From the IMG/VR virus record IMGVR_UViG_3300042289_000411, positions 1 through 39,688 of that record: a stretch of DNA of 39,688 bases. One strand, given 5' to 3'. The notes under the pieces were generated by a model that worked only from the letters and a program-made list of their open reading frames with translations, ran no database searches and was not told the origin of the DNA. Source of the stretch: a virus. This document shows positions 13,221 through 15,332 of the stretch, piece by piece (the stretch's first letter is position 1; the number at the start of each line of letters is the position of its first letter). Position numbers and translations under genes: made by a program.

Positions 13221-13549
13221 GAACCGTTGAAATCACGATGACGCTGCACGGCGGTCTGTTTGAGCATGCCCCAGAGGTTGCCGCATATTGCGACAAACAC
13301 GAAGTGCAAGCGTCCATTGACGCACGCTGGATGGCCGAGCAGCGAGAGGACTTCCACTACCACGGCAGCCGCGTGCGAACGATCTGGACGCTGCTCTCGT
13401 GGAACGTAGTTGCGCTGTACGTGGACAGGACACAGATCCTTACCGCAGAATCGGTGCCGGAAGGGTTCCCGATGTTGGAGATCATGCGTGTCCTTCAATC
13501 AGAAATCGGCGAGGACATCCGCGCCATCGGGCCGGGGGAGGCGTTGTAA
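13217..13549 (+). CDS. Hypothetical early protein with shared C-terminal cassette, first copy (110 aa)
   Basis: This 110-residue protein starts at ATG 13217 (ATGA overlap). The body is unlike its neighbour, but the last residues before the stop, EIGEDIRAIGPG, are identical to the ending of the next protein and are encoded by an identical 34-bp sequence. Body: residues 1-95 with FHYHGSRVRTIWTLLSWNVV, no recognised family. Shared tails on otherwise unrelated adjacent proteins suggest a common partner or delivery signal, or a recent recombination event. Confidence 0.7.
   Translation: MRTVEITMTLHGGLFEHAPEVAAYCDKHEVQASIDARWMAEQREDFHYHGSRVRTIWTLLSWNVVALYVDRTQILTAESVPEGFPMLEIMRVLQSEIGEDIRAIGPGEAL
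13505..13538 (+). repeat. 34-bp direct repeat, copy 1 (C-terminal coding cassette)
   Basis: Identical to 13906-13939. It codes for the IGEDIRAIGPG ending of the 110-residue protein and stops 11 bases short of that gene's end. Confidence 0.9.
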
Positions 13550-13551
13550 TT

Positions 13552-13950
13552 ATGCCATCAGTTCTGCATGAAGCACTTGTCGATGCAATTCGCTACAACA
13601 CAGCGCGTTTCTTTGCCATCGATGGGTTCCAGGCAACAATTGCCGACGCCGCAATCTTCAATGCGCTGCATGACTGCAAGCACTTGGGTTGGATCGCAGA
13701 TTGCTACTTCTTGTTGTCCGAGGGCGTGATCGTGTTAGAGGTTGGGCAAATGCATGATGGCAAGTGGCGCGGTATCTGTGATCCGTGCGGCACGCAGATA
13801 CGGGTCTTGCGAATTGGCAAGGATCGGTCTATTAGCCTCATTCATGCACGGCATACCGTGCAGGAAACGGCGTTCGTACAAGCAGTCGCAATGACGTTGA
13901 CCGAGATCGGCGAGGACATCCGCGCCATCGGGCCGGGGGCGACGCCATGA
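13552..13950 (+). CDS. Hypothetical early protein with shared C-terminal cassette, second copy (132 aa)
   Basis: This 132-residue protein starts at ATG 13552, 2 nt after the upstream stop. It is visibly more A/T-rich in codon use than its neighbours, up to the last dozen codons where the GC-rich 34-bp cassette begins. The body (VDAIRYNTARFFAIDGFQAT, IFNALHDCKHLGWIADCYFL) has several cysteines and no recognised family. The composition break suggests that a foreign body was joined to a resident tail. The stop overlaps the methyltransferase start as ATGA. Confidence 0.7.
   Translation: MPSVLHEALVDAIRYNTARFFAIDGFQATIADAAIFNALHDCKHLGWIADCYFLLSEGVIVLEVGQMHDGKWRGICDPCGTQIRVLRIGKDRSISLIHARHTVQETAFVQAVAMTLTEIGEDIRAIGPGATP
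13906..13939 (+). repeat. 34-bp direct repeat, copy 2 (C-terminal coding cassette)
   Basis: Identical to 13505-13538 and in the same reading frame. It sits directly before the end of the 132-residue gene and 7 nt before the methyltransferase start codon. Confidence 0.9.
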
Positions 13951-15332
13951 GATATCTATCGGTGTGCTCCGGCATTGAGGCCGCGTCAGTTGCGTGGCAC
14001 CATCTCGGCTGGGAGCCCGTGGGCTTCAGCGAGATTGAGCCGTTTCCTGCTGCGGTCCTAAAGCACCGCTTTCCGCACGTTCCCAACTACGGGGACATGA
14101 CCAAGTTCGAGGAGTGGCCCATTGAGCCAGGAACAGTTGACCTTCTGGTCGGAGGAACACCCTGCCAGTCCTTCAGCGTCGCAGGACTCCGCAAGGGACT
14201 TGAAGACCCCCGCGGGAACCTCATGCTCACCTACTTGGCAATTGCTGCTCGGCTCCGACCCAAGTATCTGGTTTGGGAGAACGTGCCCGGTGTCTTGTCA
14301 TCGAACGGAGGACGGGATTTTGGCACCTTCCTCGGGGCGTTGGGGGAACTCGGGTATGGGTGGTGCTACCGATGCCTTGACGCTCAATACGTGCGAGTGG
14401 GGGGATGGCCCCGAGCCGTCCCGCAGCGCAGGCGACGTGTCTTCGTTGTCGGATGTCTTGGAGACGGGACCGCTGCCGCCGAGGTTCTCGCTCTCCGCGA
14501 AGGCTTGCAGCGGCATCTTGAGGCGAGCGGAAAGGCGCGGAAAGGCGCTGCCGCCGATGCTGAAGGCGGCGCTCGAGGCGGTTGCTGGTGGGACGGAGGC
14601 GACTGCGCCGGGACGCTGACGAAGCAGAATGCAGGTGGCGGTCAGCGGATGCCAGACAAGGACAATCTCGGGGCGGTATTGCAGCCGACCGCATTTCGCT
14701 GGCAGAACGAACGCGACGGCTTGCAGCAGGACGATGCCGTGGCAGCTCTTCGCGCATCGGCCGGAAGCTCCGGGTTCCATGAGATGAACCACCCGGTCAT
14801 CGCGCAGCCAAACGCGGCCCATGCGGCGGTGGCGATTAGACTGACAACCTGCGAGACTCCGAAGTTCGCCCATGAAGTGCAGCCGACGCTCACCGTCCCA
14901 AGTCCGTCCGGTGGTGGTCAGCCGCCTGCGGTGGCGTTTCACCCGTTGCAAGACCCCATCAGCAGCACCGACGGATCGACGCATTGCATGGGGACAGGAA
15001 GCAGCCGTGGCGACGCGACCATTGCAGTAGCCGTCGCGCCGTCGCTGACAGCGACCAACGACCCGTCGCGCTCGCCGCAATCGTCCGAGGTGACGCAGCA
15101 GGTCGCCGCAGTCCACGCAAGCACCATGACCGTGCGTCGATTGTCGCCGCGTGAGTGCGAGAGACTCCAGGGCTTCCCGGACGACTGGACTCTGATCCCG
15201 TGGCGCAAGAAGCAGGCAGAGGACTGCCCGGATGGGCCGAGGTATCGCGCCCTTGGAAACTCGATGGCGGTCAACTGTATGGCTTGGATCGGGGAGCGGA
15301 TTGCAAAGTGGGAGGCCGAGCATGAACGCTGA
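13947..15332 (+). CDS. dcm: DNA C5-cytosine methyltransferase
   Basis: The 461-residue enzyme has all key motifs: I (SVCSGIEAASVA, residues 5-16), IV with the catalytic cysteine in GGTPCQSFS (C73), and VI WENVPG (E111). It also has VIII PQRRRRVFVVG (159-169), IX RRLSPRECERLQGFPDDW (397-414) and X YRALGNSMAV (433-442). It would transfer methyl groups to cytosine C5, probably to protect phage DNA from host restriction. The region between VIII and IX (about 171-396) is the variable target-recognition part and is low in complexity at its start. A second reading frame is nested inside from 14122 to 14619. The gene overlaps both neighbours. Confidence 0.93.
   Translation: MRYLSVCSGIEAASVAWHHLGWEPVGFSEIEPFPAAVLKHRFPHVPNYGDMTKFEEWPIEPGTVDLLVGGTPCQSFSVAGLRKGLEDPRGNLMLTYLAIAARLRPKYLVWENVPGVLSSNGGRDFGTFLGALGELGYGWCYRCLDAQYVRVGGWPRAVPQRRRRVFVVGCLGDGTAAAEVLALREGLQRHLEASGKARKGAAADAEGGARGGCWWDGGDCAGTLTKQNAGGGQRMPDKDNLGAVLQPTAFRWQNERDGLQQDDAVAALRASAGSSGFHEMNHPVIAQPNAAHAAVAIRLTTCETPKFAHEVQPTLTVPSPSGGGQPPAVAFHPLQDPISSTDGSTHCMGTGSSRGDATIAVAVAPSLTATNDPSRSPQSSEVTQQVAAVHASTMTVRRLSPRECERLQGFPDDWTLIPWRKKQAEDCPDGPRYRALGNSMAVNCMAWIGERIAKWEAEHER
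14122..14619 (+). CDS. Nested overlapping ORF inside dcm (165 aa)
   Basis: This 165-codon frame lies wholly within dcm, in another frame of the same strand. Its TTG start at 14122 has a perfect GAGGAG (14109-14114) with a 7-nt spacer. The product has ordered-looking motifs: QLTFWSEEHPASPSASQDS, TEDGILAPSSGRWGNSGMGG, LTLNTCEW, SLSDVLETGPLPPRF, then SAKACSGILRRAERRGKALP. The last segment looks like a real helical domain, while the dcm frame over the same bases is Ala/Gly/Arg-rich filler. I recall similar TFWSEE and LSAKACxGILRRAxxRGK proteins from other phages, without a known function. No other function is assigned. Confidence 0.65.
   Translation: MSQEQLTFWSEEHPASPSASQDSARDLKTPAGTSCSPTWQLLLGSDPSIWFGRTCPVSCHRTEDGILAPSSGRWGNSGMGGATDALTLNTCEWGDGPEPSRSAGDVSSLSDVLETGPLPPRFSLSAKACSGILRRAERRGKALPPMLKAALEAVAGGTEATAPGR

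Follow-up and report, generated by a model that had tools for sequence, protein, structure and literature searches.

The window, the whole 39,688-base stretch of DNA analysed here, is a virus record in which head, terminase, tail and lysis genes of phage type are present. It carries a gene for a C5-cytosine DNA methyltransferase (dcm), and a second, shorter reading frame on the same strand lies entirely within this gene (dcm spans 13947-15332). As (14122-13947) mod 3 = 1, the nested frame is in the +1 frame of dcm. The features to which we refer below are all on the plus strand:

13947-15332, plus strand: phage dcm gene, C5-cytosine DNA methyltransferase, 461 aa (Pfam PF00145, E 5.5e-49; PHROG 116, 'DNA methyltransferase', E 1.7e-89)
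14109-14114, plus strand: Shine-Dalgarno sequence GAGGAG of the nested gene, 7 nt before the TTG (GAGGAG, TGGCCCA, TTG)
14122-14619, plus strand: nested gene in the +1 frame of dcm, TTG start, 165 aa (open frame; 102 of 102 genes in the synonymous-shuffle test)
14151-14174, plus strand: dcm motif IV (GGTPCQSF), overlapped by PASPSASQD of the nested frame
14421-14453, plus strand: dcm motif VIII (PQRRRRVFVVG), overlapped by the start of the nested core
14443-14586, plus strand: nested core, residues 108-155, SLSDVLETGPLPPRFSLSAKACSGILRRAERRGKALPPMLKAALEAVA, three predicted helices (from constraint and structure model)
14499-15059, plus strand: dcm variable region, residues 185-371, where the target-recognition domain (TRD) is expected (pLDDT <50 over 185-211 and 226-371)
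15135-15179, plus strand: dcm motif IX (RRLSPRECERLQGFP), downstream of the nested ORF, in the dcm frame only and absent from the nested protein

The ORF listing and the upstream sequence confirmed what a preliminary description of this DNA had reported, namely a 165-codon frame inside dcm with a TTG start and a perfect GAGGAG 7 nt ahead of it. The catalytic motifs of dcm, said there to be all intact, can indeed be read in the dcm frame, which retains SVCSGIEA, PCQ, ENV, QRRRR, RRLSPRECERLQGFP and GNSMAVN; these we take to be motifs I, IV, VI, VIII, IX and X, respectively. The Dcm model matches the structures of M.HhaI and M.HaeIII over about 170-180 columns, with a best E of 2.1e-14. AlphaFold predicted the large domain of the window Dcm confidently (mean pLDDT of the protein 65.9). 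Across most of residues 185-371 pLDDT fell below 50, so that this part is mostly predicted to be disordered, and no confident small domain was seen in the model of the window Dcm. For the nested proteins that were tried, neither Pfam nor NCBIfam holds a family, and searches of the nested frame detected no HNH or other Pfam family, either in the window (E up to 1) or in loci L001-L006 (E up to 0.1). A phmmer search with the nested protein of the window returned a single match at E 1.6.

Is the +1 frame also open in relatives of this gene? Eighty viral loci were fetched with the last 70 dcm codons, which do not overlap the nested ORF, thereby avoiding a choice by the feature itself. Motifs IV, VIII and IX were recognised in 62 of the 80, and the other 18 were dropped as truncated or unparsed. 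In each of the 62 parsed dcm genes the longest +1 open run spanned motif VIII; in 57 it spanned motif IV as well, and in five it began after that motif. These runs had a median length of 166.5 codons, compared to 102 under synonymous shuffling, and the corresponding values for the other frame were 64.5 and 76 codons. Taken gene by gene, the run was improbable (p<0.05) for the +1 frame in 37 and for the other frame in 3 of the 62; that the +1 count is no higher is due to the few chance stops that GC-rich genes carry. The frame is also open in genes of lower GC content, as it extended over 142-192 codons around the core in 74 Streptococcus-type loci (median GC of the set 39%). The second frame is thus open to a greater extent than the host frame would enforce. 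According to the preliminary description, scattered stops in this frame of homologous genes would speak against a gene. Relatives do have stops there, located ahead of the core. These occur in the five runs that begin late and in Enterobacter phage CobraSix, in which two stops lie within the match, upstream of the open part that holds the core; they are not scattered through the core. A profile of the nested protein matched 77 of the 80 dcm-chosen loci. The three that it missed (L097, L100 and L157) have no recognisable motif IV or VIII, and the nested region is therefore absent there.

Protein content of the +1 frame was assessed by scoring the nested-protein profile on this frame in 102 non-redundant genes (<75% identity) and in 50 synonymous shuffles of each. 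The real frame exceeded every shuffle in all 102 genes, with group median z values of 9.0-14.5. The 32 genes of group A, the window among them, were in the training set, and 21 Firmicutes-phage genes and 2 P1-like genes were outside it; in the dcm-chosen set, none of 42 genes shared a 40-residue nested peptide with a training locus. When the test was repeated with a profile built from thinned group A without the window, 70 of the 71 other genes (now including the window) scored above their 30 shuffles, at a median z of 11.5. Control stretches of dcm, taken just upstream and from the C-terminus, reached a median z of just 0.3-0.9 in either frame, and kinship of the DNA is therefore not the explanation of the +1 signal. 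The +2 frame of the nested region also scored above shuffles (69/71, median z 7.7), so the shuffle test alone cannot name the coding frame. We take the +2 signal to be passive, as the bases have little freedom left once the other two frames are given, and +2 is not maintained as an open frame.

The signal is unevenly distributed along the nested frame. It was strongest after motif VIII, where all 40 shuffles were exceeded in 60 of 60 genes; from motif VI to motif VIII it was moderate (38/60), and at motif IV it was weakest (33/60, and 0/15 in the Firmicutes set). Correspondingly, the three ordered motifs that the preliminary description had singled out fared differently. SLSDVLETG...LSAKACSGILRRAERRGKALP proved to be the universal part, with a z of 14.0 in the window and with each of the 60 genes exceeding every shuffle. 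TFWSEEHPASPSASQDS turned out to be lineage-specific and in part a by-product of dcm motif IV; its z in synonymous shuffles was 5.1 in the window and had a median of -0.6 in Firmicutes phages. Outside the window's own kind, the first ~107 nested residues are under weak constraint, and they may form little more than a permissive leader there.

Synonymous variation was analysed in 72 aligned dcm genes of 74, with codons numbered from the window's upstream stop. The ratio of observed to expected synonymous change in dcm was 0.79 within the nested ORF and 1.19 outside. Resolved by stretch, it amounted to 0.92-1.06 in the first part of the ORF, to 0.67-0.82 from codon 157 to motif VIII, to 0.28-0.48 over alignment codons 205-252 and to 1.27 directly past the nested stop, giving the constraint a mild edge upstream and a sharp one downstream. 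Within codons 205-252, first positions of dcm codons were the most variable in four of four 12-codon blocks and third positions the least variable in three; at codons 229-240, variability was 0.55 for first versus 0.19 for third positions. A variable first and a fixed third position are expected if +1 is the main coding frame.

At 81 core positions, substitutions were classified as silent or replacing in each of the two frames. The resulting rates are raw proportions from pairs 2-20% apart, in which pairs share sequences and some contigs are counted twice: dN/dS was 0.16-0.20 for the nested frame (431 pairs) versus 0.60-0.79 for dcm, and in the Firmicutes set (1588 pairs) 0.10-0.12 versus 0.35-0.41. 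The P1-like set gave a dNN/dNS of 0.25 and, on dcm-silent sites with just 11 SS changes, a dSN/dSS of 1.13. These data show that, in the overlap beyond motif VIII, the hidden frame is under stronger purifying selection than the dcm frame. Selection at the protein level outside the catalytic motifs, for which the preliminary description had proposed to look, is thus present in the second frame. Of 72 P1-like dmt loci, one (L197) carries a nonsense codon within the nested core, and its dcm residue at this place is changed as well.

The second frame also has translation initiation signals of its own. A Shine-Dalgarno sequence of at least 5 nt preceded the candidate nested start in 51% of 74 relatives (window included) as compared to 7% of control windows, which were drawn at random, with matching length, from the same dcm genes. 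The respective values were 81% of 21 versus 5% in the Firmicutes-phage set and 4 of 7 versus 3% in seven further genes. The AGGAG-7-TTG of the window counts among these starts, and in 20 of the 74 relatives no Shine-Dalgarno sequence of at least 4 nt was found before the nested start. Among groups, the start falls at differing dcm codons, and such a shifting position suits independent initiation better than frameshifting. Openness, shuffle tests, constraint, dN/dS and Shine-Dalgarno enrichment together strongly support the earlier proposal of a second gene with its own ribosome site. That the +1 frame of dcm constitutes a true overlapping protein gene, and one that is widespread among the C5-methyltransferases of phages and prophages, is near certain.

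The nested protein of the window matches 129 phage records. Among the 60 of these 129 matches that were listed are phages of Pseudanabaena, Roseobacter, Caulobacter, Mycobacterium, Vibrio, Pseudomonas and Enterobacter, and the annotated features under the matches are named methylase, methyltransferase or hypothetical protein. With the P1 version, 531 plasmid records were matched (449 from Escherichia), counted as sequence matches irrespective of reading frame. A scan of genome contigs with the single nested protein yielded three loci. Starting from the dcm of Streptococcus phage P0092, the core was found in +1 in 74 of 80 loci, and the other six have no recognised motif VIII; all 74 align to at most the first 46 of 68 core positions and are without most of the second half. 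Where annotations were compared, at six loci including P1 dmt, the nested frame was +1 in 6/6. Several of our sets hold near copies and were thinned where stated.

A quick tree of the catalytic domain, for which 68 of 219 rows were usable after thinning and which has several long branches, showed the nested state to be strongly clustered, with 4 label changes versus 21.0 in shuffles. A single nested clade was not rejected on it (p-AU 0.911), which does not prove a single origin of the nested state.

Two candidates for a standalone copy were set aside. One of them, L484 (G471), is a decayed locus with the front of dcm missing; the fronts of dcm and of the nested frame were lost there together, and everything from motif VIII onward is left in both frames. 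The other, L487, has 28% identity, one stop and no match to the core.

For the nested protein, AlphaFold gave a confident prediction only at residues ~109-156, which form three helices (mean pLDDT of the protein 64.1; 72-97 by ten-residue blocks over 111-160). The earlier impression that the nested frame looks folded therefore stands, as a prediction, for this part and not for the whole product. Foldseek found no match of the nested model in the PDB at E 0.001 or better. VIA-align returned five rows at Z 2.1-3.8, the best (3.8) being a chain of a sigma-factor complex, and we did not accept any of them as kin. Likewise, when PDB sequences were searched with a profile of the nested alignment, antibody light chains were the only matches (all at E of 0.45 or above), which we attribute to chance.

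In an hhalign profile-profile comparison, the core aligned just after motif VIII of canonical C5-methyltransferases (P 5.8e-5). We scored the core profile on 48 unique non-nested enzymes, mainly from genomes of one phylum: at 0 bits or more it matched 13 in frame 0, 4 in +1 and none in +2, where shuffles lead to an expectation of 0.5, and at 3 bits or more it matched 5 in frame 0 and none in +1, in +2 or in shuffles. The best of the matches in cis were L461 (PLKKVLEKHVPEKYYFSAKAVQGMLKNR, E 4e-8) and L492 (SLSDILETNVDEKYY, E 2e-4; both for 48 sequences). Eight of the 13 start 25-37 residues past motif VIII and the other five 95-140. The core is thus similar in sequence to a stretch that is present in cis in some canonical C5-methyltransferases, where their small (target-recognition) domain begins. 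A core in cis was found at 3 bits or more in frame 0 of none of the 189 nested-type genes, a search of low sensitivity; as clear likeness occurs in just 5 of the 48 canonical enzymes, this absence is weak evidence. A simple ancestral frameshift of an in-frame segment was rejected, since the distance from the Q of motif VIII to the start of the nested core (LSDIL) is 7 codons in 173 of 177 genes measured (from the set of 189) and the cis segment mostly lies 25-37 residues after the motif. Convergence of the nested core and the cis segment is possible.

The nested product had previously been suggested to regulate, target or replace part of the methyltransferase. All three roles are compatible with our findings, and the likeness of the core to the small-domain segment favors the last. 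C5-methyltransferases tolerate being split: fragments of M.SssI complement best when the break lies between motif VIII and the TRD, and two C5-methyltransferases, M.AquI and M.EcoHK31I, consist of two chains by nature (PMC3404938). Core likeness, split tolerance and the two natural precedents make a trans subunit the likeliest mechanism in our view. We assign a probability of about 0.55 to the reading that the active enzyme would be an alpha/beta pair, in which the nested product serves as a small-domain subunit of Dcm supplied in trans. If correct, the nested protein would be translated by independent initiation on the dcm mRNA, and its C-terminal three-helix core would take the place of the cis segment at the start of the small domain, binding in trans to the catalytic large domain that the dcm frame encodes. 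Further downstream in dcm, the variable, disordered region would then act as a linker joining motif VIII to motifs IX-X. It is from sequence likeness that we infer the formation of a complex. Several findings speak against a subunit. The Streptococcus-type core is without most of its second half, and the Dcm of P0092 is a short, ordinary-looking enzyme. The positions of the nested and the cis core do not agree, the nested fold has no match in the PDB, L197 carries its nonsense codon, and the P1-like set yields no clear dN/dS at dcm-silent sites. With somewhat less confidence, and a little short of even odds, we propose that a wide group of phage cytosine methyltransferases, P1 Dmt included, would be two-chain enzymes that are annotated as single proteins, with an overlooked small-domain subunit encoded in +1 and kept across phages of Proteobacteria, Actinobacteria and Firmicutes.

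The gene-level evidence would fit equally well if the overlapping gene were real and its product no part of the enzyme. It might then be a small DNA- or protein-binding factor co-expressed with Dcm, for instance one that represses dcm, one that inhibits Dcm up to the late stage of infection, or one that acts in counter-defence. In being short, helical and basic (GILRRAERRGK), the core has features often seen in small DNA-binding proteins, and we consider such a role a real, if tentative, possibility. However, a separate factor offers no reason for the likeness of the core to the small-domain segment of Dcm, and the nested gene accompanies Dcm. Among 327 carrying loci none held two copies; the frame was +1 relative to motif VIII in 315 of 315 scored loci (12 were unscored), and no intact standalone copy was present among 7 places in 6 of 299 genomes.

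The remaining explanations dispense with a separate gene or protein. Ribosomes translating dcm might slip into +1 in a programmed manner and so produce a Dcm whose C-terminus differs and extends to the nested stop, and the nested frame does run on past motif VIII where the dcm frame turns to low complexity. However, start codon and Shine-Dalgarno sequence are enriched at the N-terminal edge of the ORF, the window's kind is constrained in +1 ahead of and across motif VIII, which would be needless for a shift after it, and the product would be without motifs IX and X, which dcm retains; we therefore regard frameshifting as improbable. It is very unlikely that the +1 conservation is merely a passive shadow of a conserved, GC-rich dcm. 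The GC content is 62% in the window and 64% in dcm, both strands contain many long chance ORFs, in 25 of the 62 genes the open run taken by itself is not improbable, and the N-terminal PASPSASQD coincides with dcm motif IV. Against this stand the shuffle tests with their internal controls, the sharp end of constraint at the nested stop, a nested dN/dS of 0.10-0.20 and the long open runs of the Streptococcus-type loci, which agree with the earlier view that the frame is no passive shadow. Equally hard to credit is a constraint on the nucleic acid (RNA structure, regulatory element or DNA site), from which synonymous constraint by itself cannot separate a protein, as no Rfam family reached its gathering score, the folding energy of the window is ordinary (z -0.35 in the start region, 0.55 in the core) and changes silent in the nested frame are tolerated (dNS 0.33 per site versus dNN 0.04-0.07).

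The small chain of M.EcoHK31I is translated from a different frame within the gene for the large chain. This enzyme, which recognizes YGGCCR, is among the closest in kind to the proposed alpha/beta pair, being a C5-methyltransferase of a large and a small polypeptide; its small chain bears motif IX and its large chain the predicted TRD (PMC3404938). In our locus, by contrast, dcm itself retains motif IX, no known motif occurs in the small protein and the TRD region of the large chain is mostly predicted to be disordered, a comparison made by description. M.AquI likewise consists of two chains, divided in the variable region between motifs VIII and IX, and its second chain comprises the distal variable region together with motifs IX-X (PMC3404938). 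Here, the putative second chain differs in overlapping the first in another frame and in providing only the small-domain-like core.

One member of the nested family is already annotated. P0092_45 of Streptococcus phage P0092 is the nested frame, 139 aa long and in +1 inside the dcm P0092_44, and bears only the name 'DNA methyltransferase'. It matches PHROG 16143 over residues 1-139 of 139 (E 2.3e-86), and the same PHROG also matches the nested proteins of L002 (E 5.2e-11) and of the window (E 0.0038). Among the papers listed in literature searches, none presents P0092_45 as an overlapping gene. Another second protein in a different frame inside a phage DNA-methylase gene is the hidden HNH endonuclease of the ShiLan-domain type, described as a mobile insertion with a disjoint distribution, an HNH domain and use of the third frame (PMC11855218). 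Unlike the ShiLan type, the nested gene reported here overlaps the catalytic motifs, uses the +1 frame and is kept across a wide Dcm group.

Owing to its position within another gene, this conserved gene is missing from the annotation of most of the annotated phage loci that we opened, including P1 dmt. Should the product be a subunit, a phage Dcm assayed on its own may seem inactive or mis-specific, and supplying the one small protein would make the specificity directly testable. As the hidden frame of this long overlap is the more constrained of the two over the core, the locus is also useful for studying how a pair of proteins shares its codons over long periods.

Individual loci showed further peculiarities. 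In Mycobacterium phage Lucky2013 (L002:2152-2991), the annotated methylase ends soon after the nested region, without motif IX or X, and the nested frame is intact; this dcm may be split or truncated. In Pectobacterium phage MA12 (L332:1966-3492), the dcm region is unannotated on its own strand, and one reverse-strand hypothetical gene is placed over it. In the window itself, the two genes directly upstream of dcm share an identical 34-base tail (13505-13538 and 13906-13939) encoding IGEDIRAIGPG, an exact direct repeat that suggests a duplicated small gene or a common tail.
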